Below, one piece after another: positions 4,725 to 26,306 of a DNA stretch of 64,000 nt. This DNA comes from Halorientalis sp. IM1011. Its GTDB lineage: Archaea; Halobacteriota; Halobacteria; Halobacteriales; Haloarculaceae. The stretch covers positions 1,488,001 to 1,552,000 of the forward strand of contig NZ_CP019067.1 of assembly GCF_001989615.1 (NCBI RefSeq). The letters run 5' to 3'. The position numbers were made by a program, and so were the translations under genes. The stretch's first letter is position 1. Every line of letters begins with the position of its first letter. A model generated the notes under the pieces. The model did not search any database and was not told the DNA's origin. It saw only the letters and a program-made list of their open reading frames with translations.

Positions 4725-4844
4725 TTACTGCTGGCGGTCGGTGAGCCGTCGTTCGAGGCGGGCCAGTCGCCGCTGCAGGCGCAGCATGTAGCCGAACAGC
4801 AGGACGAACAGGCTCGTGTATCCGACGAGCAAGAGCGGTTCCAT
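4725..4844 (-). CDS. ccmD: CcmD-like small membrane protein of the heme exporter
   Basis: A 39-residue protein: a single hydrophobic helix (about residues 4-19) followed by a strongly basic, heptad-like tail (RLQRRLARLERRL). That architecture is the hallmark of CcmD, which tethers the CcmABC exporter to heme-loaded CcmE in System I cytochrome c maturation. Its ATG overlaps the ccmC stop by one base (TGATG), so translation is probably coupled. Identification rests on size, topology and position, because CcmD sequences are poorly conserved. Confidence 0.8.
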   Translation of the reverse strand: MEPLLLVGYTSLFVLLFGYMLRLQRRLARLERRLTDRQQ

Positions 4845-5569
4845 CAATGGTCACCTCCGTGTGGCTGGGTGCGGACGCGGTCGGTCAGTTCGTGTAGTTC
4901 CATTCGCAGTGCCATCAGGTAGCCGTACAGCAGCGTCGCGGCGACGAAAGAGACCCCCAGCGTCAGGGGGTCGATGTTGGCGCTCACCTCGGGGTTCGCC
5001 AGCGTCGTCTCGTGGAACGTGGGCGTCCACAGCCGCGTGGACAGATACGAGATCGGAACGGTGATGAACCCCAGCACGCCGTAGACGGCCGCGTACCGCT
5101 CGTCGCTGGTGCGATCGGTCGCGCCGTAGACGAGGAGGTAGCCGGCGTAGATGAACCAGACGATCAGGAACGTGACGAGGCGGACATCGGTCCACTCCCA
5201 CCAGGAGTTCCAGACGACGCGGCCCCAGATACTTCCAGTGAGCAGCGTGAGCGTCGCGAACAGGAACCCGATCTCGCCGGCGCTGTGGGCGAGCCGGTTC
5301 CAGAACCGACCGCCGTACCGGAGGTACAGCCCACTCCCGAGGAACGTCACCGACAGCGCGAGCGCGGCCACCCAGGCCATCGGGACGTGCCAGTAGGCGA
5401 TGAGGTTCGCGCCGTGTTCGATTCCGTACATCGTGTCCGAGGCGTACCCGAAGACCAGCCCCATCGAGAGCAGGCCGGTGACGAGCGTACCCCACCGGAC
5501 CACGCGGCTCCACATGAGCCAGTCCGCGACGCGGATCAGCCGCGAGAGCGTCGAGGTCAGTGTACTCAT
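4844..5569 (-). CDS. ccmC: Heme exporter/heme-handling protein CcmC
   Basis: CcmC passes heme to the chaperone CcmE outside the membrane. The 241-residue protein has about six membrane segments, the Trp-rich heme motif at residues 115-128 (W115, W123, W124, W126, D128) and two histidines at H61 (YWHVP) and H186 (PTFHET), at the positions expected for the axial heme ligands. The canonical WD pair is interrupted by one threonine (WTD). The ATG at 5569 was chosen because GGAG lies a few bases upstream; the longer reading to 5617 lacks such support. Neighbours ccdA, ccmD and, farther off, ccmA/B/E/F complete the pathway. Confidence 0.93.
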   Translation of the reverse strand: MSTLTSTLSRLIRVADWLMWSRVVRWGTLVTGLLSMGLVFGYASDTMYGIEHGANLIAYWHVPMAWVAALALSVTFLGSGLYLRYGGRFWNRLAHSAGEIGFLFATLTLLTGSIWGRVVWNSWWEWTDVRLVTFLIVWFIYAGYLLVYGATDRTSDERYAAVYGVLGFITVPISYLSTRLWTPTFHETTLANPEVSANIDPLTLGVSFVAATLLYGYLMALRMELHELTDRVRTQPHGGDH

Positions 5570-5637
5570 CGGTCTCTCCTCCTGTCGTAGTGAAACGCCG
5601 CCGACGGCGGGTTCCACCGCGGTCGTCCAGTAGTCAT
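5566..5637 (-). CDS. 23-codon ORF bridging ccdA and ccmC
   Basis: An ATG at 5637 overlaps the ccdA stop (ATGA), and this frame stays open for 23 codons and ends in a TGA that overlaps the ccmC start (ATGA). The peptide is basic and hydrophilic (begins MTTGRPRWNPP, ends in an Arg-rich tail). It fills the gap exactly, so ribosomes could pass from ccdA to ccmC without leaving the message. It could be a true microprotein or only a translational-coupling leader. Its DNA also holds the purine-rich GGAGGAGA that serves as the ccmC ribosome-binding site. Confidence 0.4.
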   Translation of the reverse strand: MTTGRPRWNPPSAAFHYDRRRDR

Positions 5638-6326
5638 ACTGTTCCGTTAGCGAATGTCATCGCGAGTTTGTCGAGTTCGAACAGAAGCGACACGCCGGTC
5701 CCGACGAGGACTGCGCCAGTCACGCGCCGCAGGACAGCTGGCCGGTCGCCCGCGAGCAGTCGTGACTCGAACCACTGAACGGTCCGGTTGCCCCCGTAGG
5801 CGACTGCCAGCAAGGGGACGCCGAATCCCCAGCCGTAGACGAACAGCAGCGTGCCGGACCTGACCAGGTCGCCGGTCTGCCCGACGGCGGCGAGCACGGC
5901 GCCGAGGACCGGGCCGACGCACGGCAGCCAGATGACGCCGAGCAACAGCCCCAGTGCGACGCCGCTGGCGACAGGATGGGCGTCCCGTTCGAGTCCAGAC
6001 GACAGGTCGGTCGCCCACCCGGCGAGTCGAGAGGCACGGCGTTCGTAGGCGGCGTTGATACCGTCGTCGAGCAGGACCACCCCGAACCCGACGACCAGCA
6101 CGGTGAACGGCAGTCGGAACGTGTCCGGACCGAGGCCGGCGACTGCCCCGGTCGCGACCCCGGCCGCCGTGAAGGAGACGACGCTCCCGGTGACGATGCC
6201 GAGCGGCCGGAGGCGATGGCCCACGCCGCCGGCCAGCAGTGGCGGGAGCATCGGCAGACAGCAGGGCGTCAGAATCGTCAGTAGCCCAGCCAGGAACACC
6301 GCCGTCACGCTCGGGAGGTCGACCAT
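5634..6326 (-). CDS. ccdA: CcdA/DsbD-type transmembrane thiol transporter
   Basis: A 230-residue, six-helix membrane protein of the cytochrome c biogenesis protein CcdA family. It moves reducing equivalents from cytosolic thioredoxin to extracytoplasmic thiol proteins, keeping apocytochrome CxxCH cysteines reduced. The redox cysteines are visible in helix 1 (TPCCLP, C22/C23) and near helix 4 (WLPCVGP, C136), in the family's PCxxP-like contexts. It lies 27 bp downstream of the diheme cytochrome gene and is coupled to ccmC through the bridging ORF, so it is surely part of the cytochrome operon. Confidence 0.92.
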   Translation of the reverse strand: MVDLPSVTAVFLAGLLTILTPCCLPMLPPLLAGGVGHRLRPLGIVTGSVVSFTAAGVATGAVAGLGPDTFRLPFTVLVVGFGVVLLDDGINAAYERRASRLAGWATDLSSGLERDAHPVASGVALGLLLGVIWLPCVGPVLGAVLAAVGQTGDLVRSGTLLFVYGWGFGVPLLAVAYGGNRTVQWFESRLLAGDRPAVLRRVTGAVLVGTGVSLLFELDKLAMTFANGTV

Positions 6327-6353
6327 AGACGGAATGGTTGGGGGAGACTGCGC

Positions 6354-7610
6354 TCAGTCCCCGTCGCTCATCGCGTTCGAGATGCTGTTCTGGGTGTTCG
6401 CGGATTCGTTACGTAGCGGCTGGTCGTACCGGCTCACGTCGTCTGGAATCATGTCCTCCTCGAGGGGCGTGTCGTCGGTCGGGATGCCCGCCAGCTCGAG
6501 CTTGTGCGCCATCGGGTTGCGGTCGTAGCCGAACCGCTCCTGGGTGCGTTCGTAGTAGACGGCCTCGTCGGGCGGGCCCGTCTCGGGCCAGTCCTGTGAC
6601 TGGCGCTGGAGGTTCGGCCGGTCGTGGGCGTTCATGTAGCCAGCGATGTCCTGGACGTCACGCCAGTCCGACACCGTGTGGGGGGTGCCGTACGGCATCG
6701 CCTCGCGGATGAACGCCGCCGCGGTGTAGACGCGGCCCATCCCGGCACCGTCGCCGTACGAGCCGTTCCCCCACAGCGGCGGATACTGGCCCTCGATGCC
6801 CTGGCCATCAGCGCCGTGGCAGGACGCGCAACTCTCGAGGTACAGCTCGGCGCCCCGGACCGGGTTGATCTCGGGGATCGGAACCTGCTCGTCGCCGGTC
6901 GGCTTGGCCAGGCGGCGCCAGTAGGGAGCGCTACCGATGGGCTGGCCCTGTCCGAGCCACTCTATGTAGGCCTCCATCGCCTGCACCTCGCGGCTCGTGT
7001 AGTTGGGGACGCCCTCGGGTGAGCTGGGTGCGTCCATGCTCCGCAGGAAACACCCCGTGATGCGCTGTCGCATGTCGCGCATCCGGCTGGTCCGGTTGGT
7101 CCACTCTGGGTAGCCCGCAGCGGTCCCGACCAACGGGATCAAGTCGATGTCCTGGCCGACCATCCCCTGAGTCGTCGGCAGGTCACCGCCGCCGTGACAG
7201 TTCGCACAGGAGAGGTTGTTCCCGACGTGGTCGGGCATCACCTCTGACGTATTGGCCATGATCTCCCGCCCGTAACGGACGAGGTCGCGCCGGTAGGGGT
7301 TCGCCGGGAGCGTGGACTCGTTCATCTCCTTGGGGACGAACTCGACCGCGTCACCGGCCGTCGCGTTCCGGTAGCGGAAGTTCGTCTTGTTCTCGCCCGA
7401 CCGCAACCCCTCGTCGTAGACGTGCGTGTCGTTCCACTGGGTTGGGAGCGCACCCGGCCCGCCCTCCCCGCCCGGGGCGGCACCCCCGTCGCCGCCACCG
7501 GCCGGCGACGTATCGTTCGCAATCGGGGGATTGAATCCACAGCCAGCCAGCGTAAGTACCACGAGTGTGAGCAGTGTCGCCAGCGCCCGCCGATCGAGTG
7601 GGAGGTTCAC
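6354..7610 (-). CDS. TsdA-like diheme cytochrome c lipoprotein
   Basis: A 418-residue exported lipoprotein (lipobox ending LTLAGC, C24) with two covalent heme sites: CANCH (134-138) and CASCH (260-264). Between them the stretch RITGCFLRSM places C186 where thiosulfate dehydrogenase TsdA has RINGCxxRSM, whose Cys is an axial ligand to the active-site heme. M304 (AMPYGT) is a plausible ligand of heme 2. It may oxidise thiosulfate to tetrathionate, run the reverse reaction, or serve as an electron carrier. It heads the minus-strand operon with ccdA-ccmC-ccmD and is the obvious client of the maturation genes. Substrate is inferred, not shown. Confidence 0.8.
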   Translation of the reverse strand: MNLPLDRRALATLLTLVVLTLAGCGFNPPIANDTSPAGGGDGGAAPGGEGGPGALPTQWNDTHVYDEGLRSGENKTNFRYRNATAGDAVEFVPKEMNESTLPANPYRRDLVRYGREIMANTSEVMPDHVGNNLSCANCHGGGDLPTTQGMVGQDIDLIPLVGTAAGYPEWTNRTSRMRDMRQRITGCFLRSMDAPSSPEGVPNYTSREVQAMEAYIEWLGQGQPIGSAPYWRRLAKPTGDEQVPIPEINPVRGAELYLESCASCHGADGQGIEGQYPPLWGNGSYGDGAGMGRVYTAAAFIREAMPYGTPHTVSDWRDVQDIAGYMNAHDRPNLQRQSQDWPETGPPDEAVYYERTQERFGYDRNPMAHKLELAGIPTDDTPLEEDMIPDDVSRYDQPLRNESANTQNSISNAMSDGD

Positions 7611-7712
7611 GAACCGCTCACCACCGCGAACGAATCGGCAGGGTCGTGTTGTATCGTCGACAGCATGGTGAGATATCTACAATACTGGCACGCAAATTAC
7701 ACCGCCGGCCGT

Positions 7713-7745
7713 GATAACTATTATCCACACTGTGTTTATATAAAC
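7713..7745. promoter_or_regulatory. Palindromic elements in the divergent cytochrome promoter
   Basis: Between the divergent diheme cytochrome and thioredoxin operons sits GATAA-CTA-TTATC (7713-7725), a perfect 5-bp dyad flanked by imperfect GTG/CAC arms, followed by the 12-bp palindrome GTTTATATAAAC (7734-7745). The latter resembles a TATA box readable in both directions. Suggests regulated divergent transcription; the binding factor is unknown. Confidence 0.45.
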
Positions 7746-7815
7746 GCCAAGACAGCCCACACTCGACGAAAATGGTCTGTCGACCCGGTCAGCAGTATGA
7801 ATGCTGAGGTAGATG

Positions 7816-7844
7816 TTGTTTGTGCTATCCAAACAATATTTATC
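7816..7844 (+). promoter_or_regulatory. Dyad operator plus TATA box for the thioredoxin-ccmF operon
   Basis: A perfect 7-bp inverted repeat, TTGTTTG and CAAACAA with a 7-nt spacer (7816-7836), abuts a TATA-like AATATTTAT (7835-7843) about 30 bp before the ATG at 7873. A factor bound here would overlap the BRE/TATA region and could block or recruit TBP/TFB. Confidence 0.5.
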
Positions 7845-7872
7845 GCGGGGCGTGGAGTAGCGGGCAGGTTCG

Positions 7873-8343
7873 ATGAACGCGCGGAAGTCCTTGACCGCCG
7901 TCGTTCTGGTCGTCGCGCTCGGGGTCGGATATACGTCGATGAGTACGGCACCGGTACTCCGTGACGACGCGTACTCCTATCACGGCGATACGAAGTGGCA
8001 CACCGACTACGAGCGGGCCGCGACCATCGCCGACGAGCAGAACAGGCCCATGCTCGTCTACTTCTGGACGACGTGGTGTACCTACTGCGAGGACTACGAC
8101 GAGAACGTCTACTCCGACCCGACGGTGCGAGACCGACTCGACGAGTTCGTCCTCGTCGCCGTCAATCTCGACAACGACGGGTCGCGAACGTCCGAACTCG
8201 TCAACCGCTACGACGCGAACTACCCGCCACAGCTCGTGGCGACCCACCCGAACGGCACCCGGCTCGTGAAGATAAACGGCTACGTCGAGCGTGATCGCTT
8301 CCTCTCGCACCTCGACCGCGCCGAGCGGAGGATGGACCGATGA
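7873..8343 (+). CDS. Membrane-anchored thioredoxin-fold protein (CcmG-like role)
   Basis: A 156-residue protein with an N-terminal signal anchor (about residues 7-23) and a thioredoxin-like domain holding the redox motif WCTYC (C69, C72). It is closest in feel to the DsbD gamma/DUF255-type thioredoxins that act outside the membrane. Its stop overlaps the ccmF start (ATGA), so it is the first gene of the ccmF operon. The context argues that it takes electrons from CcdA and reduces the apocytochrome cysteines, the job of CcmG/CcmH in bacteria. Confidence 0.85.
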   Translation: MNARKSLTAVVLVVALGVGYTSMSTAPVLRDDAYSYHGDTKWHTDYERAATIADEQNRPMLVYFWTTWCTYCEDYDENVYSDPTVRDRLDEFVLVAVNLDNDGSRTSELVNRYDANYPPQLVATHPNGTRLVKINGYVERDRFLSHLDRAERRMDR

Positions 8344-10712
8344 CGACACTCGGCACGCTCCTGCTGGGGGCCGGGACCCTGCTGGCGGCGGTCGCGACGA
8401 CGCTGCTCGGCGTCGGCTACGCCCGCCGGGACGACCGGTTCGACGCGCTCGTCCCACGAGTCGTCGCGGGTGCTGCCGGCCTGCTCGTCGTCTCGCTCGT
8501 CTACCTCACCTACCAGTTCGTCGTCACCGACTACAGCAACGCGTACGTCTGGCAGAACTCCGCGGACTATCTCCCGCTCCTGTACCGTGTCACGGGCGTC
8601 TACGCCAGCAACGCCGGCTCGCTGCTCCTCTGGGCGACGCTCGCCGCCGTCGTGGCCGCGTGGGCCATCTGGCAGCGCGGTCCCGGGGACGCCGAGGGCC
8701 GACTCGTCGGCGCGCTCACGATGGGCGTCGTCGCGTACTTCGGGACGGTACTCGTCCTCGATAGCCCGTTCCGGCACGTTTCGACTGCCGTCTCGGGCGG
8801 CGTCCCGACCACCGGGAGCGGTCTCAACCCGCTGTTGATCGATCCGTACATGGCCATCCATCCGCCGCTCATGTTCGCCGCCTACGCGCTGCTGACGATG
8901 CCGTTCGCCATCGGGGCGGCGCACTTCGTCGGTCTGGCCCGTCGCGACGACGGACTGTTCGCCGCCTGGCGCGGCGCCGTGACCCGCTGGCTGCGGGCCG
9001 CGTGGCTGTTGCTGACGACGGCGCTGGCGCTCGGGGCACTCTGGTCGTACACGGTACTCGGGTGGGGCGGTATCTGGGCGTGGGACCCCGTCGAGACGGC
9101 CATCCTCGTGCCGTGGCTGTTCCTGACGGCGACGCTACACGCCGTCGTCAACTACCGGCCCAGGGACCGCTACGCCCTGCTGGCGCCCGCGATGACTGCC
9201 TCGACGTTCGCGCTCGTGCTCTACACCACGACGGTCGTTCGCAGTGGCGTCTTCCGCAGCGTCCACTCGTTCGCCGACAACGGGGCCGGCCTGGGAATCG
9301 TCGTCCTCGTGGGGCTCGTCGCGCTCCTGGGTGTCGGGCTCCCGCTTGGGTACTGGCTGGTGCGCGAGGACGACCACGAGGGCAGCGGCGGGGAGTGGGT
9401 GACGCGCTCGACGCTGCTCCACGGGGCCGTCCTCGCGCTGGGCCTGCTCGCGTTCGTCTCCCTGTGGGGGTTGACGTTCCCCGTCCTGCGCGACCTCGCG
9501 ACGGGGATCGAGGTGGAGGTCACCGCCCGCTACTACAATCGCTGGAGCTACCCGTTCGTGCTCGTCACGCTGCTCCTGCTCGGCTTCTACATGGACTTCG
9601 ACGTCGAGGGGAAGCGCCGGGCGCTCGTCGGACTGGGCGTGTTCGGGGCGGCGACGGTGGTCGCGGCGCTGTACGCCCCGACGACGACGTGGCAACTCGG
9701 CGGCGCCGACCAGCAGGCGACGGGCCTGTACGCCGTCGTCGGGCAGGTGAGCGCGCTCTCGGTGTTCCCGCCGGTCGCCTACGTCGTGCTGGCGGTGCTC
9801 AAACGCGGCCTCACGCGCATCCCGGGCGCGCCCCGCCAGACCAAACTGAAGCAGACGGGAATCGTGTTCGTCCACATCGGCGTCGCCCTTCTGGTGTTCT
9901 CCCTGGCCTTCACCTACCTGTTCACCGGGCAGGCGTCGGTCATCGTCGAAGGCAACAGTGAGACCGGCGAGCGGGTCGACGTCCCCGATTCGCCGTACTC
10001 GGTGCAGGCGCTGTCGTTCGGGTCGTACTCGGTGCCCGAAAATCCGGACGTCGACCGGGTCGCGCTGTCGACCCGGGACATCAACCGGCGAGGGACGGCG
10101 ACCAACGGGACGACCCAGACGGTCCACGGTACGGTCACCGACATCAGGCGTGGCCCCAGCGCGACGGTCTACCAGCTCGACGACTCGGGCGTCTGGCTCG
10201 GCGTCACGGCAGCCAACGGCACCACTACAACCCAGTTCGCTCGCGGCGACGAGGTCGTCGCACGGGGTGCCGTCCTCTGGGACTACGTGCCACAGGCTGC
10301 CGTCGTGGTCCTGACGTCCCCGGGGAACGTCGGCCCGGTGTCCGACCCGCCGGCGTCGCTGGGGCTGACCCGCGTGGCGGGACAGACGGTCGACCTCGCG
10401 GTGTACGAAGACGGCCAGCAGGTCACCGTGGGACGGGCCGCACAGAAACGGTATCCGCGACAGGGCGGGATGCAGACGCGGGAGGTCATCGTCGACCGCG
10501 GACTGGTCTCGGACACGTACGTCATCGCGGCGATCCAGGGCGACACGGCCTCACTGACGGTCAAACGCATCCCCCTGATGACGCCGCTCCGACTGAGTGT
10601 GGCCGCGTTGCTGTTCGGCATGCTGCTCGTCTTCCTGTTCGATCCGGCCCACGGCGTCTGGACGCGCCTGCGCAGTCCGTCGCTCGAGACCGACCCCGCA
10701 ACCTCCGACTGA
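8340..10712 (+). CDS. ccmF: Cytochrome c heme lyase subunit CcmF
   Basis: CcmF is the large multi-spanning synthetase that attaches heme from holo-CcmE to the CxxCH of apocytochromes. This 790-residue protein has about 14-15 hydrophobic segments and the diagnostic tryptophan-rich WWD-domain motif WGGIWAWDPVE (about residues 242-252). A large extracytoplasmic domain (about residues 530-740) precedes a final helix. Length is slightly above bacterial CcmF (about 650 residues), mostly because of that late domain. It overlaps the upstream thioredoxin gene by 4 bp. No ccmH was found beside it, consistent with archaeal variant System I. Confidence 0.95.
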   Translation: MTTLGTLLLGAGTLLAAVATTLLGVGYARRDDRFDALVPRVVAGAAGLLVVSLVYLTYQFVVTDYSNAYVWQNSADYLPLLYRVTGVYASNAGSLLLWATLAAVVAAWAIWQRGPGDAEGRLVGALTMGVVAYFGTVLVLDSPFRHVSTAVSGGVPTTGSGLNPLLIDPYMAIHPPLMFAAYALLTMPFAIGAAHFVGLARRDDGLFAAWRGAVTRWLRAAWLLLTTALALGALWSYTVLGWGGIWAWDPVETAILVPWLFLTATLHAVVNYRPRDRYALLAPAMTASTFALVLYTTTVVRSGVFRSVHSFADNGAGLGIVVLVGLVALLGVGLPLGYWLVREDDHEGSGGEWVTRSTLLHGAVLALGLLAFVSLWGLTFPVLRDLATGIEVEVTARYYNRWSYPFVLVTLLLLGFYMDFDVEGKRRALVGLGVFGAATVVAALYAPTTTWQLGGADQQATGLYAVVGQVSALSVFPPVAYVVLAVLKRGLTRIPGAPRQTKLKQTGIVFVHIGVALLVFSLAFTYLFTGQASVIVEGNSETGERVDVPDSPYSVQALSFGSYSVPENPDVDRVALSTRDINRRGTATNGTTQTVHGTVTDIRRGPSATVYQLDDSGVWLGVTAANGTTTTQFARGDEVVARGAVLWDYVPQAAVVVLTSPGNVGPVSDPPASLGLTRVAGQTVDLAVYEDGQQVTVGRAAQKRYPRQGGMQTREVIVDRGLVSDTYVIAAIQGDTASLTVKRIPLMTPLRLSVAALLFGMLLVFLFDPAHGVWTRLRSPSLETDPATSD

Positions 10713-10713
10713 C

Positions 10714-11877
10714 ATGGCACGCACGACTCTTACACTCCTGGTCGCGTTCGCCTGCCTCGCCACCGTCACCGGCGTCGCCGCGGCCGATCCGGTGACCGGA
10801 ACCGTCGACGTCGAGAACGGTACCGCCGAAGGCGACACCGTCACCGTCACGCCGATGGACGGCGGGTTCAAGCGAGTGGGCGAGCCGGTCTCGACGACCG
10901 TGCGGAACGGCCGCTACCGGGCGTCGGGCCTCCCCAACGCGACCATGTACGCCGTGCGCCTCCAGCACGGGAACGCCAGCCACTACCGCGTCGTCTCCGA
11001 ACCACGGGCGAATTTCACGCTCTCCGCCACGCTGTCGGCACGGCTTGTGACTCCGGACGGGACGCCGGTAACCGACGCACAGCTCACGGTCCTGTCCCGG
11101 GCCGGCCCGCCCGTCGCGAGACTCGAGGCCGGACCGGAGGGCAGGATCGAACTGGGTCCGCTCCAGCTGAATCGGAGCTACACCCTCCGCACGAACCGGA
11201 ACGGAGCCCCGTATCGGTACGTGCTCCGGACGGGGACCAACGCCACCGGGGCAGAACTCCGGGTGCGGCCCCCGACGAGCGACGGGGCGGCGTTACGGGT
11301 GACCGGCGGCGACCCGGCCAGCCACGTCGTCCAGCCCGTCGAGCGCAACGGCGCGACGACGGTTGTCGAGCGCATCCAGTTCGAGAACGCGGCCGACCGG
11401 CCGTTCGTCGGGCCGGTCGCGGTCGGCCTGCCGCCGAACGCGACGGTACGCTCGGTCGCCATCCAGGACCAGCAACTACGGCATCGGCGCACGGCCGACG
11501 GCGTCGCGGTGAACGCCTCTCTGGCCCCTGGTTCGCAGATCCGCGTGACCGTCCGGTACGAACTCCCCGACGGCCGGCTCGCGAAGCCTGTCCTCCACGA
11601 TACCGACTCGCTGGTCGTCGTGTTGCAGGGGTACGACGCAGACCGGGTCGAGTACGCCGACGAGCTCCGGCTCGTCAACAGAAGCGGGATGCCGATCCCG
11701 ATGCTGACGACGACCGCCGGACTCTCGGCCGGCGACCGGATCGCGGTCACGCTCCCGGGCGGTACCTCCGGCGGGGGCGAAGAGGGCGGACCGATGCCGC
11801 GGTTCCCGGCCACGGTGTTCGCGGTCGCGCTGCTGGCCGTCGTCGGTGGCGGCATCGCGGTGTACCGCGTCGTCTAG
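10714..11877 (+). CDS. Secreted, C-terminally anchored protein of the Ccm cluster
   Basis: A 387-residue protein with a signal peptide (about residues 1-23), two carboxypeptidase-regulatory/Ig-like beta segments (about 25-180), a mid-section of beta-rich sequence and a C-terminal membrane helix (about 363-385). It starts 1 bp after ccmF and so belongs to that operon. No heme or thiol motif is seen and there is essentially no cysteine. A similar secreted protein with a single C-terminal anchor could scaffold the ligase complex, replacing CcmI or CcmH, but that is speculation. Its TAG stop shares CTAG with the convergent ccmB stop. Confidence 0.75.
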   Translation: MARTTLTLLVAFACLATVTGVAAADPVTGTVDVENGTAEGDTVTVTPMDGGFKRVGEPVSTTVRNGRYRASGLPNATMYAVRLQHGNASHYRVVSEPRANFTLSATLSARLVTPDGTPVTDAQLTVLSRAGPPVARLEAGPEGRIELGPLQLNRSYTLRTNRNGAPYRYVLRTGTNATGAELRVRPPTSDGAALRVTGGDPASHVVQPVERNGATTVVERIQFENAADRPFVGPVAVGLPPNATVRSVAIQDQQLRHRRTADGVAVNASLAPGSQIRVTVRYELPDGRLAKPVLHDTDSLVVVLQGYDADRVEYADELRLVNRSGMPIPMLTTTAGLSAGDRIAVTLPGGTSGGGEEGGPMPRFPATVFAVALLAVVGGGIAVYRVV

Positions 11878-12554
11878 TCGGCGACGATGGACTCGAAGAC
11901 GACCATCCCGGCCAGGAGGAGGATGCCGGTGTACGCGACGAGCAGTCGCAGCCACGAGCCGAGGGCACCCCCGACGCCGAGGAGGCGCGTGAGTTCGACC
12001 CCTGTCAGCAGGAGGGGAACGACCAGCGGGACCAGCAGGATCGGAACCAGCGATTCACGCAGGTTCGAGCGGGCCGCCAGAAGCGAGAGGACGACGCCGA
12101 CGGCCGAGAAGCCGATCGCGGCCACGCCGACGACGCCCGCGAGCGCCGCCAGCATCGCCACCGGCGGCCGGTAGTTCAGGAAGACGACGGTCCCCGCGAG
12201 CGTCGAGAGCGAGATGATCGCGACGAAGACGGCGTTGCTCGCGACCTTTCCGAAGTAGATGGCGGTGCGGTCGACGGGGGCGAGCAACAGCCCGTCGATG
12301 GCGCCGTCGCGGTATTCGGCGGTGACCGCCTGCGTGACCGAGACGGTGCCCGCGAACACGAACGCGATCCAGAGCGCGCCGCGCCCCAGCACCGCCAGAT
12401 TCGACACCGCCGTCGCGAACGCGAAGGCGAACGCGACGACGACCAGAAGTGCGAACACGAGCGCAGTGGCGAGCACCCGCTTGGAGCGGGCCTCGACGAG
12501 CAGGTCCTTCCGGACGACGGTCCAGACCACCCGCAGATACGTCCGTACGGTCAC
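11874..12554 (-). CDS. ccmB: Heme ABC exporter permease CcmB
   Basis: A 226-residue membrane protein with six hydrophobic segments and the early conserved stretch RKDLLVEARSK followed by the EYRDGAIDGLLLAP motif, both typical of CcmB. It forms the CcmABC(D) complex that releases holo-CcmE from CcmC. The GTG at 12554 was chosen because it overlaps the ccmA stop (GTGA), matching the pattern at the ccmE-ccmA junction; longer readings run through ccmA in another frame. It is the last gene of the ccmE-ccmA-ccmB operon. Confidence 0.93.
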   Translation of the reverse strand: MTVRTYLRVVWTVVRKDLLVEARSKRVLATALVFALLVVVAFAFAFATAVSNLAVLGRGALWIAFVFAGTVSVTQAVTAEYRDGAIDGLLLAPVDRTAIYFGKVASNAVFVAIISLSTLAGTVVFLNYRPPVAMLAALAGVVGVAAIGFSAVGVVLSLLAARSNLRESLVPILLVPLVVPLLLTGVELTRLLGVGGALGSWLRLLVAYTGILLLAGMVVFESIVAD

Positions 12555-13258
12555 GACGACACCTCCAGCCCGACTGCGTCGCGGTAGGCCCGCTCGAAGG
12601 CGTCGGTGTCGGGGTACTCGGCCACCGCGTCGTCGAACCGGACCTGCCCGCGGCCGAGGACGACGGCCCGGTCGCAGTGTTCGAACCCGCGCTCGAAGTC
12701 GTGGGTGGCCATGACGACCAGTCGGTCGTCGAACCCGTCGAGGACGGCCCCGAGCGTGCCGGCCGCGCGCCGGTCCAGCCCCGCGTACGGCTCGTCGAGC
12801 AACAGCACGTCGGGGTCGTGAACGAGTGCGCGCGCCAACGACAGTCGCTTGCACATCCCGTGTGAGAACGCGACTGGGCGCTCGCTCGCCCGGTGTGCGA
12901 GCCCGACCCGGTCGAGCAACGCCTCACATCGCGCGGCGTCGACGCCGTGCAGGCGGGCGTGGAGCCGGACGTTCTCCCGGGCCGTCAACTCGTCGTAGAG
13001 CATCGTGTCGTGCGTGAGCACGCCCAGTCGGCCGCGGACAGCGTCGGGCGCCGATCCGAGGTGCGCACCGTCGAGTCGGACACTCCCCTCGGTCGGGGTC
13101 GAGAGCGTGGCCAGCACGCGGATGAGCGTCGACTTGCCGGCACCGTTGGGCCCGAACAGGCCGAGGAACTCCCCGTCGGTGATCTCGAGGTCGATCCCTC
13201 GAAGGGCGGTGAACCGACCGAACCGTTTCGTGAGTCCGTCGACGACGAGACGCGTCAC
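12551..13258 (-). CDS. ccmA: Heme ABC exporter ATPase CcmA
   Basis: A 235-residue ABC ATPase: Walker A GPNGAGKST (36-44), signature FSHGMCKRLSLARAL, Walker B VLLLDEPYAGLD and H-loop ATHD. The FSHGM signature departs from LSGGQ but resembles the YSxGM form of some CcmA/ABC-2 ATPases. ATP hydrolysis drives release of heme-loaded CcmE. Start GTG at 13258 overlaps the ccmE stop; it overlaps ccmB by 4 bp at the other end, implying a tightly coupled operon. Alone it could be any ABC-2 ATPase; the flanking ccmE and ccmB fix the call. Confidence 0.92.
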   Translation of the reverse strand: MTRLVVDGLTKRFGRFTALRGIDLEITDGEFLGLFGPNGAGKSTLIRVLATLSTPTEGSVRLDGAHLGSAPDAVRGRLGVLTHDTMLYDELTARENVRLHARLHGVDAARCEALLDRVGLAHRASERPVAFSHGMCKRLSLARALVHDPDVLLLDEPYAGLDRRAAGTLGAVLDGFDDRLVVMATHDFERGFEHCDRAVVLGRGQVRFDDAVAEYPDTDAFERAYRDAVGLEVSS

Positions 13259-13623
13259 GTGTCCTCGGGACGCTCGGATCCTTCGTGGGCCCGCACGGAG
13301 AGCTGGCGTGCCTCGAGCCTGCCGTCCTCGTAGACGCCCTTCGCGACGACGACGCGGCCCTCGTTCATCGTCTCGGGCTGTGTCTTCTCGTAGACGACCG
13401 GGACCGAGGCGTTCCCGTCTGTCACGGCGAACTCGAGACGGCCGTCGGCCGTGTGCAGGTCGGTCACGACGCCTTCGAGGTTGACGCGCTGGCCCTCGTG
13501 TGACCCCTCGTCGAGTTCCGTCGGCGTGACGAACTGCGCCGACGCGGTCGACGTGGTGACGAGTAACCCCGATAGCAGCAGGATTCCGACGATCGCGATA
13601 CCGAGTTTGGTCTTTCGCTGCAC
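13255..13623 (-). CDS. ccmE: Heme chaperone CcmE (variant lacking the heme-site tyrosine)
   Basis: A 122-residue (from GTG 13623) membrane-anchored OB-fold protein: signal anchor about residues 7-28, beta-barrel core, and the family's VVVxKGxYEDGRLEA strand. In bacteria the following HxxxY histidine binds heme covalently, and archaeal variants use CxxxY. Here H113 is present (RAHEGSE) but the tyrosine position is glutamate, and the protein ends nine residues later. The GTG was chosen because a TATA-like element lies about 24 bp upstream, giving a leaderless mRNA; an ATG at 13656 would sit upstream of that box. Confidence 0.85.
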   Translation of the reverse strand: MQRKTKLGIAIVGILLLSGLLVTTSTASAQFVTPTELDEGSHEGQRVNLEGVVTDLHTADGRLEFAVTDGNASVPVVYEKTQPETMNEGRVVVAKGVYEDGRLEARQLSVRAHEGSERPEDT

Positions 13624-23951: not shown

Positions 23952-24001
23952 CGGTAGCCCAGTAGAACCGGGCACAGCGGACGGACGCTGCCGTCCGAGG
24001 T

Positions 24002-24073
24002 GCCTGGGTAGCTTAGCGGTAAAGCGCGTCCTTGGTAAGGACGAGACCGCGGGTTCAATTCCCGCCTCAGGCT
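24002..24073 (+). tRNA. tRNA-Thr (anticodon GGT)
   Basis: Cloverleaf of 71 nt plus discriminator T: acceptor GCCTGGG/CTCAGGC (one G-T pair), D arm with AGCGGTA, anticodon stem CGTCC/GGACG around TTGGTAA (anticodon GGT), T arm GCGGG-TTCAATT-CCCGC. No intron, no encoded CCA. The tnpB gene starts about 150 bp downstream, so this tRNA may mark the insertion neighbourhood. Confidence 0.95.
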
Positions 24074-24188
24074 CTTCTCACAGTTCCACTGAGTTCCAGT
24101 TCGCCTGTAACCGTCGGAGACCTTCGATACTCGAGATTCGAATCGGGGACAGGCGTGGCGTCCCAGATACTGTAGCCTCACCGTCAAG

Positions 24189-24198
24189 TTATAAATAA
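24189..24198 (+). promoter_or_regulatory. TATA box of tnpB
   Basis: TTATAAATAA centred about 27 bp before the GTG start at 24220, indicating a leaderless transcript. Confidence 0.6.
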
Positions 24199-24219
24199 TC
24201 GCCGAGCGCCACTGGATAC

Positions 24220-25482
24220 GTGGCGGACGACTACGTGTATCGGACGGCGATCACTCGTCTCGAGGTCTCCGACGAGCAGCGTGTGCGGCTCGAAGAGACG
24301 ATAGCCGAGTGGAAGCGCGGCTGTCAAATTGCGACGAATCTCGCGTGGAACCGGTGCCACGAGAAATCAGACGTTCAGTCACTCGCCTACGATACGCTGC
24401 GAGAACGAACCGACCTCGGGAGTCAACACGCGATTCTCGCCACACACCAGGCCGCACAGGCGATAACTGGCTGTATCGAGCGTAGGTCGAGAGGGGAGCA
24501 AACGAGCAAGCCGCGATTCACTGCGCCGACAGTGAAATACGATTCTCGGACGCTGACACTGTTCGACGACGAGACAGTGTCACTCAGTACGACCGAGAGT
24601 CGGATTCGCTGTCCGCTCGTCCTTCCGGAAGACGACGACGGGTTCCAGTGGCAATTCCTCGATTCGGAACGCTGGGAAGTGACCGAAAGCACGCTCACTG
24701 CCGACGGGGACGACTACTTCCTGCACCTCGGTTTTCGACGCCCGAAAACGGACGCACAACGGACCACCGCCGAGAACGGAACGGTTCTCGGGGTCGACCT
24801 CGGTGTCGAAAACATCGCTGTCACTAGCACCGCGCGGTTCTTTCCAGGTGGGGAGTTGAACCATACGCTCAGTGAATTCGAGGAGGCACGTGCTGGACTG
24901 CAGCGAACCGGGACCCGAAGTGCTCACCGAACGATCGAACAGGCGAGCGGTCGCCAACTCCGACGCGTTCGTGACGAGATGCATCGCGTCTCGAAAGGAA
25001 TCGTCACCGAAGCCGTCCGATACGACTGTGATCGCATCGTCTTCGAGGACCTCACACACATCCGAAAACGAACGGAGGGTGCGTGGGGGCACAGGTGGGC
25101 GTTCCGACAGCTCTACCAGTTCGTCGAGTACAAGGCTGAACGTCACGGTATCGAGGTCACACAGGTTGGGTCGGCCTATACGTCGAAACGGTGTGCCGAA
25201 TGTGGGTTCACGTCCGACGAGAACCGTCCGACTCGTGAGCACTTCGAGTGCCAGTCGTGTGGAACGGAAGCGAACGCGGATTACAACGCGGCGAAAACCG
25301 TTGGAATGCGGTACGTCCGTCGGGGCCAACAGTCGTCCCGGCGGACGGGCGATGGTCAACTCGCCCTGAAGTCCGGAACGGTGACACCGAACGGCGGATT
25401 TACCGCCTACCCCGACGGGTTCGAGGCCGAGTTCACGGACAAGCCCCAGTATGCTACCGCGCCACCATCAGATCCGGTCTGA
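24220..25482 (+). CDS. tnpB: RNA-guided nuclease TnpB of an IS200/IS605-type (IS1341-like) element
   Basis: A 420-residue TnpB with an intact RuvC core: D in GVDLGVENIAV (about residue 193), E in VFEDLTHIRKR (about 275), and the last D in NADYNAAK (about 353), with a CxxC...CxxC zinc ribbon (CAEC, CQSC) between the second and third. Such proteins cut DNA guided by an omega RNA made from the element's right end. No tnpA transposase is present, so the element is non-autonomous or domesticated. GTG start is fixed by the TATA box 27 bp upstream. All catalytic residues are kept. Confidence 0.93.
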   Translation: MADDYVYRTAITRLEVSDEQRVRLEETIAEWKRGCQIATNLAWNRCHEKSDVQSLAYDTLRERTDLGSQHAILATHQAAQAITGCIERRSRGEQTSKPRFTAPTVKYDSRTLTLFDDETVSLSTTESRIRCPLVLPEDDDGFQWQFLDSERWEVTESTLTADGDDYFLHLGFRRPKTDAQRTTAENGTVLGVDLGVENIAVTSTARFFPGGELNHTLSEFEEARAGLQRTGTRSAHRTIEQASGRQLRRVRDEMHRVSKGIVTEAVRYDCDRIVFEDLTHIRKRTEGAWGHRWAFRQLYQFVEYKAERHGIEVTQVGSAYTSKRCAECGFTSDENRPTREHFECQSCGTEANADYNAAKTVGMRYVRRGQQSSRRTGDGQLALKSGTVTPNGGFTAYPDGFEAEFTDKPQYATAPPSDPV

Positions 25483-25509
25483 TGGGAACCGGCGGGCGGA
25501 ACTGTGGCA

Positions 25510-25560
25510 GTTGATATTCCGGCCTAGACTCTTCCGCGATATCAACCACCCGAGGAGTCT
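25510..25560 (+). ncRNA. Candidate right end/omega RNA 3' part of the TnpB element
   Basis: Just after tnpB lie two overlapping, mutually exclusive stem-loops: GTTGATAT/ATATCAAC (25510-25517 with 25539-25546; 21-nt loop) and AGACTC/GAGTCT (25526-25531 with 25555-25560). Right-end hairpins in this position form the scaffold of the omega RNA in known TnpB systems, with the guide immediately downstream. The exact element boundary is not determined here. Confidence 0.4.
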
Positions 25561-25795
25561 TCCGTCCCCCAGATAGACCACGGTGCTACCGACTTGAGCC
25601 GCCGCGGCACCACCCTCGTGCGGACGACTATCCCGCACAGTTCGAGGCGCGTCTGTGTCACGACGCGGCCCCGTACCGGACCGGGGCGTGAGTTCCAGAC
25701 TCCTCTCACCCACCCAACTTTTCATCCCTGATAATCGGGCGCAAGATATTTTACCCATCCGCGCCTATCCGGTAGTAGGCACCAACACGGTGCCA

Positions 25796-25829
25796 CCCCC
25801 ACCCCCCACCCCCACCGATCCCCCACCCC
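25796..25829 (-). other. G-quadruplex-type tract upstream of aceA
   Basis: Five runs of 4-6 cytosines, separated mostly by a single A, on the plus strand; the minus strand therefore reads as five G-runs with short loops, well above the usual four-run quadruplex pattern. It lies about 480 bp before aceA. Confidence 0.5.
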
Positions 25830-26306
25830 TTTCTACTTCGACGCTACACCCCCGAGCGATAGCTGTGTGCGCTGATCCGCCCGGATCGACGATCCCGCCG
25901 AGTTCCCGTGCTAGAGAACCACAGTCCATTATATTCGTTAGTTCGCTCTAGGATCCGGAATGCGATTAAAGAGTTTTAACATTATAGACCATAACATTTT
26001 TCTGCTGATGTATGCTCGTGACGGATGCGTACGAACAGACACCGCGAAACGCGGGCGGAGTTCAATGCTACCGGACACGATCCCTCGTAGATACCAGTCG
26101 TCAGCCGCTGTCGGCACGTGGGTCCAGCGGGTGGTTCGCGCCGTCGCTGGTCCTCGGAGTGGGGTCGACCGACTGGCCCTGCGCCGGGTCGTCGACGGTA
26201 CTGGAACTCCCTCGCGCGGTTCTCGGGCGGTTCCTGGGTCCCGCCGTCCGCGAGCCGTTTCGACAGAGATAAACCGATTCTACTGGAGGACCTACACGCA
26301 ATAACC

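Follow-up and report, generated by a model that had tools for sequence, protein, structure and literature searches.

A System I cytochrome c maturation island probably dedicated to one diheme client, a TsdA homologue, in the haloarchaeon Halorientalis sp. IM1011

Here we analysed a stretch of 64,000 nucleotides of Halorientalis sp. IM1011 (contig NZ_CP019067.1, positions 1,488,001 to 1,552,000; hereafter the window), which sits on a contig of 3.38 Mb in a genome of 3.78 Mb, and in particular its positions 4725-13620, where ten genes (ccmD, ccmC, ccdA, tsdA, trx, ccmF, orfX, ccmB, ccmA and ccmE) form a cytochrome c maturation (Ccm) island. We consider it highly probable that this island is a self-contained System I cassette dedicated to a single diheme cytochrome, TsdA, which it makes as a membrane-anchored protein on the outside of the cell. 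Gene families were assigned with Pfam and NCBIfam profiles, which confirmed the ccmA-F genes, ccdA, CxxC thioredoxin and diheme c protein that the original prediction had placed within about 9 kb, although that gene list had overlooked orfX (10714-11877). It had also held thiosulfate oxidation to tetrathionate, or the reverse, to be unusual for haloarchaea, a view that we cannot uphold, since a 2005 paper, known to us by its title from reference lists, reportedly describes oxidation of thiosulfate to tetrathionate by a haloarchaeon. The same view is contradicted by Kletzin 2015, whose available text describes five haloarchaea in which thiosulfate dehydrogenase (TDH) homologues are arranged with ccm genes in the manner of an operon, as well as MauG encoded together with ccm genes (PMC4429474); the TsdA-Ccm pairing in haloarchaea is thus not new but was already published in 2015. 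What goes beyond this pairing is that CcmE and CcmD depart from the archaeal machinery as described, that OrfX is strictly paired with TsdA, and that CcmF sorts by client. The features of the island are as follows.

4725..4844, minus strand: ccmD, 39 aa with a single transmembrane helix, overlapping ccmC (TIGR04391 CcmD_alt_fam, 3e-07, 30.3 bits)
4844..5575, minus strand: ccmC, heme handling protein with WWD region (PF01578, 6.7e-23)
5634..6326, minus strand: ccdA, membrane thiol-electron carrier, DsbD_TM (PF02683, 1.7e-18)
6354..7610, minus strand: tsdA, 418-aa diheme homologue of thiosulfate dehydrogenase / tetrathionate reductase, with lipobox LAGC membrane anchor
7194..7208, minus strand: heme 1 motif CANCH of tsdA, residues 135-139, aligning with CRHCH of A. 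vinosum TsdA (AvTsdA)
7050..7052, minus strand: Cys187 of tsdA, predicted distal ligand and catalytic cysteine of heme 1, equivalent to AvTsdA Cys96 by alignment
6816..6830, minus strand: heme 2 motif CASCH of tsdA, residues 261-265
6696..6701, minus strand: Ala304-Met305 of tsdA, the predicted heme 2 Met ligand preceded by Ala in place of the AvTsdA ligand-switch Lys208
7611..7872, no strand: intergenic region from which the tsdA and trx operons diverge
7873..8343, plus strand: trx, membrane-anchored thioredoxin-like protein with CxxC motif WCTYC (PF13899, 6.6e-13)
8340..10712, plus strand: ccmF, cytochrome c synthase of the TsdA-type clade (TIGR00353, 1.1e-59, below cut-off)
10714..11877, plus strand: orfX, 387-aa secreted protein of beta-sandwich fold, anchored by a C-terminal transmembrane segment
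11874..12554, minus strand: ccmB, heme exporter permease (PF03379, 3e-23)
12551..13258, minus strand: ccmA, ABC ATPase (PF00005, ABC_tran, 7.1e-33; TIGR01189, 3.8e-34, below cut-off)
13255..13620, minus strand: ccmE, heme chaperone (PF03100, 2.4e-13, above cut-off)
13285..13293, minus strand: Arg-Ala-His of CcmE, replacing the heme-binding site (K)C(PSKY) or (K)H(DENY)

These genes fall into three sets, tsdA-ccdA-ccmC-ccmD on the minus strand, trx-ccmF-orfX on the plus strand and ccmE-ccmA-ccmB on the minus strand, the first two diverging at 7611-7872 and the last two converging at 11874. Because genes overlap or touch within the sets (trx/ccmF, ccmA/ccmB, ccmE/ccmA and ccmC/ccmD), this layout suggests three operons, in agreement with the earlier description of three operons facing each other.

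The identity of the client was examined through its sequence relatives. The diheme protein matched Cytochrom_C (7.5e-15) and SoxA-TsdA_cyt-c (3.4e-12) in Pfam, and its best phmmer matches among solved structures were two thiosulfate dehydrogenases (4v2k, 2.3e-37; 4wq7, 3.1e-37), followed by 5lo9 (1.3e-35), whose chain is named Cytochrome C and which we take to be the TsdB-TsdA fusion, and much more weakly by SoxA (4e-4). The CXXCH motif occurs twice, across two cytochrome c domains, in the window TsdA and in all 28 haloarchaeal copies. Alignment of these copies to the stretch of AvTsdA taken from the structure match showed both CXXCH motifs, R82, R92, C96, S100 and M209 (AvTsdA numbering) to be identical in 28/28, and R293, the counterpart of AvTsdA R197, was invariant in the 27 copies of alignment A1 (L078 left out). 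The residues kept in every copy include the distal Cys of heme 1 (Cys187, in the context QRIxxCFxRS), the substrate-site Arg, Arg and Ser (Arg109, Arg119 and Ser127 in precursor numbering) and the heme 2 Met (M305 in the window), and the position of AvTsdA K208 is occupied by Ala in 25 copies and by Ser in three. In the available text of the structural papers, Arg and Ser residues line the TsdA active site around bound thiosulfate and the active-site Ser (Ser127) is reported to be TsdA-specific (PMC4423706), the heme 2 Met is termed strictly conserved across TsdA (PMC5146829), and the C. jejuni enzyme uses Met as heme 2 ligand and has no Lys there (Asn254/Met255; PMC5146829, PMC6879331). Residue conservation taken together with this literature leads us to predict His/Cys ligation of heme 1 and His/Met ligation of heme 2 in the window TsdA. 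The TsdA-like diheme client foreseen from the sequence was therefore recovered with its ligands and catalytic residues, and the cysteine in its RITGCFLRSM motif is present as described, but is numbered 187 rather than 186 with the start used here. The membrane anchor (7520-7610 in the window) varies among copies, being a lipobox in 15/28 and an apparent N-terminal transmembrane helix in 13/28.

If the island served a broader set of cytochromes, other c-type clients would be expected in the same genome, and the original prediction had named such clients as grounds for abandoning the idea. The genome has 101 CXXCH-coding sites, as compared with 368 for a reversed-pattern control. From the 100 of these sites that were listed we obtained 75 open reading frames (ORFs) with CXXCH after a start codon, 35 of them shorter than 100 aa and 40 of at least 100 aa, namely TsdA and 39 others that were scanned with Pfam. 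No credible cytochrome c family was found among the 39, which comprised radical SAM, DnaJ, alcohol dehydrogenase, HNH, ferredoxin, DUF255, zinc-finger, DUF and unassigned proteins, and thus no other client explaining the Ccm set emerged among ORFs of at least 100 aa. Genome-wide, only the two TsdA domains scored above the PF00034 cut-off and the CCP_MauG profile had no match. An ORF of 131 aa with a Cytochrome_C7 match was rejected as a client, the match (E 0.0071) lying under the cut-off and beside a zinc-ribbon match.

The distribution of the genes across haloarchaea points in the same direction. In a survey of 391 genomes of the haloarchaeal class, used for all CcmE, TsdA, MauG and OrfX counts, CcmE occurred in 40 genomes (42 copies), TsdA in 26 (28 copies, patchily spread over 14 of 86 genera) and CCP_MauG above cut-off in 14, a fifteenth genome having a sub-cut-off match with a stop. 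CcmE was present in 26/26 TsdA genomes and in 14/14 MauG genomes, so that the proposed co-occurrence of TsdA with Ccm was confirmed; the chance of all 26 falling inside the 40 CcmE genomes would be about 9e-31 if genomes were drawn at random, a figure overstated by their relatedness. Copy numbers match as well, two genomes (G319 and G325) each having TsdA, CcmE and OrfX in two copies. One genome (G037) carries both TsdA and MauG, and one (G346) has CcmE with neither of them. In the latter, proteins with eight and four CXXCH motifs are encoded beside ccmE, ccmD, ccmC, trx and ccmF (L104:6690-8513 and 11022-11930); according to the available text of PMC4429474, no multiheme cytochromes are so far known from haloarchaea.

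Synteny of all ten genes within 20 kb was found in 25 of the 28 TsdA islands; two of the incomplete ones stop at contig ends (L095, L099) and the third is that of G037 (L096). ccmD lies downstream of ccmC in all 25 complete islands, and the trx motif is WCTYC in 27/27 TsdA-type loci with trx. The TsdA most similar to that of the window belongs to a genome of the same genus (G229). A complete island is also carried by Natronorubrum thiooxidans HArc-T (contig NZ_FTNR01000001.1), a species linked in print with the report of thiosulfate oxidation to tetrathionate by a haloarchaeon. In G037 the TsdA locus has ccdA, tsdA, trx, ccmF and orfX with no adjoining ccmABCDE, which accompany trx and ccmF at its MauG locus (L097), and in G098 mauG-trx-ccmF lies apart from ccmABCDE and ccdA (L254, L255); these split loci indicate that ccmABCDE can be shared, trx and ccmF remaining beside the client. 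One plasmid of 369 kb (C2 of G319) carries two complete TsdA islands separated by about 166 kb (L078, L079), and the island of Halorussus halophilus is also plasmid-borne. Beyond the archaea, Salinivenus iranica and an uncultured Bacteroidetes genome (L209, L210, at 8001-9044) encode a TsdA that shares 59% identity with that of the window where the two match. The flanking stretch contains neither orfX nor any ccm gene, and OrfX-like matches in the genome as a whole are only partial; judging from the similarity of the enzymes, TsdA has probably been exchanged between halophilic bacteria and haloarchaea.

CcmF also follows the client. In a tree of 20 TsdA-type sequences, 10 of the 14 MauG-type sequences, G346 and E. 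coli, the two types fell on opposite sides of one branch in 200/200 bootstrap trees (branch support 89/87), with the long-branched E. coli and G346 sequences outermost. Both types were drawn from families f1, f3 and f4 and the two CcmF of G037 fell on different sides, so that CcmF sorts by client and not by host. His 261, 303 and 491 were found in 33/33 CcmF and His 173 in 32/33, and His 60 and 184 in 31/31 haloarchaeal CcmC (E. coli numbering), positions that we take to be those handling heme in E. coli. Because these histidines are conserved the heme pathway looks intact, and with CcmA, B, C, E and F all present the island is a System I.

OrfX, at full length, gave 28 matches (E <=2.2e-130) in exactly the 26 TsdA genomes and with the same copy numbers, using a profile built from 25 of the 28 copies (alignment A2; L072, L079 and L084 left out). 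At E <=0.001 the profile matched 80 of the 391 genomes, and the matches in the 54 genomes beyond the TsdA set were partial (E 7e-10 or worse) and were set aside as shared beta domains rather than orthologues. The AlphaFold model (pLDDT 85.6) has an N-terminal helix, read as a signal peptide, then beta domains and a C-terminal helix; in it residues 105-186 match 3e8v, a small beta domain (Z 11.5), the matches to residues 189-348 are ribophorin and the N-terminal domain of M1 aminopeptidases (Z about 11), and Foldseek matches included pilin and S-layer chains. We rejected OrfX as an enzyme, the matched folds being common beta folds with no catalytic domain, and as a cytochrome or thiol protein, there being no conserved Cys; no sign of a cofactor or active site was seen. 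Most likely OrfX would be a scaffold or apoprotein holder acting with TsdA-type CcmF.

The heme chaperone departs from what has been described. At the heme-binding site all 42 haloarchaeal CcmE have [RK][AS]H (RAH in 41, KSH in G346) and none has CXXXY or HXXXY; the His aligns one column after E. coli H130 (LAKHDENY), with no Tyr at +4. CcmE of other classes in the phylum has CxSKY in 30/30 loci (29 CPSKY, 1 CGSKY), these being the best-scoring loci and not a random sample, and two Salinivenus-type genomes also have CxSKY. As to CcmD, the 39-aa window protein had no match to the Pfam profile (PF04995), and TIGR04391 matched 9/9 haloarchaeal proteins tested, seven of them above cut-off (window 30.3 bits, cut-off 24). 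CcmH (PF03918) was found in 0/30 CcmE-bearing haloarchaeal genomes searched, that of the window included. The available text of PMC9084895 states that archaeal CcmE carries CXXXY universally and that archaea have no CcmD, CcmH or CcmI; it names no haloarchaeal CcmE. The original statement that CcmH is absent as in the archaeal variant of System I hence stands for CcmH, but not for the variant as that text defines it, in which CcmE has CXXXY and CcmD is lacking; the island is a client-dedicated System I variant and not the CXXXY "archaeal variant". According to the part of PMC4429474 available, the 2006 paper on variant System I used CcmB/C/E/F sequences that included Haloarcula marismortui, and the haloarchaeal CcmE motif may for that reason already be in print. 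As a tentative proposal, to which we give somewhat less than even confidence, haloarchaea may have a third form of CcmE, taking heme through the invariant [RK][AS]H His, one residue beyond the classical His/Cys position, with no Tyr, together with client-specific synthase modules (TsdA-type CcmF with OrfX as apo-TsdA holder, MauG-type CcmF without OrfX) that would offset the lack of CcmH and, presumably, of CcmI.

From the known roles of these families the following mechanism can be envisaged. CcmAB and CcmCD would load heme onto CcmE, CcdA and the WCTYC thioredoxin-like protein would keep the CXXCH motifs of apo-TsdA reduced, and CcmF, most likely with OrfX as scaffold or holder of the apoprotein, would attach heme to both motifs. 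Working through a thiosulfonate on Cys187 at heme 1, the finished TsdA would join two thiosulfates into tetrathionate or split it again, and electrons may leave through the His/Met heme 2 to a carrier, perhaps halocyanin.

Other readings of the island have to be set against this one. That Ccm serves other c-type cytochromes and TsdA is a mere neighbour could find room in the one CXXCH site and the short ORFs outside the scan, but no other credible client was found in the genome, TsdA never occurs without CcmE among the 391 genomes and the copy numbers of the two track each other, and we regard this as very improbable. A cytochrome of the SoxA/TsdA family with another substrate (for example sulfite, polysulfide or thiol-bound sulfur), the TDH label being merely inherited, is improbable, if less so: the Pfam domain pools SoxA and TsdA, K208 is replaced, and the C-terminal tail past residue 341 is unmatched in solved enzymes yet holds invariant positions. 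This reading has to contend with a Ser reported, in the text available, to be TsdA-specific (PMC4423706). It also sits badly with a best structure match to TsdA (3e-37) as against 4e-4 for SoxA, with R82, R92, C96, S100 and M209 in every copy and R293 in all those aligned, and with the presence of the island in N. thiooxidans. That TsdA acts in the cell by reducing tetrathionate for anaerobic respiration, as the Campylobacter jejuni enzyme does, is unlikely but has to be kept in view; the 2005 title reportedly concerns oxidation, and the species named for oxidation has the gene. In its favour the heme 2 pocket has no A. vinosum Lys and so resembles Asn254/Met255 of C. jejuni (PMC5146829, PMC6879331), although insertion of the Lys alone does not set direction according to the available text of PMC5146829.

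The reading of the island as a one-client TsdA cassette is itself weakened on several counts. A small second client may exist, since one of the 101 CXXCH sites and the 35 ORFs below 100 aa lay outside the scan. The direction of the reaction is not readable from sequence. The AlphaFold model of TsdA, made from 27 of the 28 haloarchaeal sequences, had a pLDDT of 38.7, too poor for the geometry between Cys187 and heme 1, and the case for Cys187 consequently rests on alignment to the crystallised enzyme. The Salinivenus TsdA, in genomes with no full-length OrfX, implies that the chemistry itself can do without OrfX. The open-licence literature yielded no enzyme assay or heme stain of any haloarchaeal TsdA and no paper joining a haloarchaeal tsdA gene to the thiosulfate trait, and N. 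thiooxidans is connected to the trait through the title of a paper and the name of the species rather than through a matched strain. With these points weighed, the self-contained Ccm island with a TsdA client remains the supported interpretation.

Elsewhere in the window, G+C falls to 0.594 at 24001-26000, just downstream of tRNA-Thr (24002-24074), and this segment is possibly an integrated element.

A one-client cassette that travels with its client offers a simple natural system for client recognition by CcmF in the absence of CcmH. The haloarchaeal sequences contradict the printed universality of CXXXY in archaeal CcmE and the absence of CcmD from archaea, and the question of why archaea have no His-type CcmE, asked in the text available of PMC9084895, becomes directly testable. 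The island also offers a candidate gene for haloarchaeal thiosulfate oxidation, found in a species whose name refers to that trait, and it provides a genome marker of the trait in hypersaline sulfur cycling.

Placing the island among known systems, it almost certainly belongs to the same family as cluster 28 (archaeal TDH) of Kletzin 2015, which is haloarchaeal and operon-like with ccm genes, and OrfX, the CcmE motif and the sorting of CcmF are not mentioned in the available text of that paper (PMC4429474). Its TsdA resembles the diheme A. vinosum enzyme (4wq7, 4v2k; E about 3e-37) in its predicted His/Cys heme 1, in R82/R92/S100/R197 and in M209, but differs from it in having Ala or Ser for Lys208, a lipobox or N-terminal anchor, an extra C-terminal tail and a linked Ccm cassette. 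With C. jejuni TsdA it shares a heme 2 without Lys and with a predicted Met ligand, whereas Ala replaces Asn254 and host, maturation and partner also differ. The Ccm of Methanosarcina acetivorans is likewise System I without CcmH, with CcmA, B, C, E and F, but according to the available text it has a CXXXY CcmE, no CcmD, no operon and a split CcmF (PMC9084895), as opposed to the RAH CcmE, the CcmD, the one island and the single CcmF found here. From the E. coli system the island retains the histidines 173/261/303/491 of CcmF and 60/184 of CcmC in all or all but one of the sequences, while LSVRAHEGSE stands in CcmE where E. coli has VLAKHDENY, and CcmH is lacking on the haloarchaeal side. In dedicated heme lyases of the NrfEFG type a CcmF homologue serves one particular client; in most haloarchaeal islands, by contrast, it is the whole of System I that accompanies the client.

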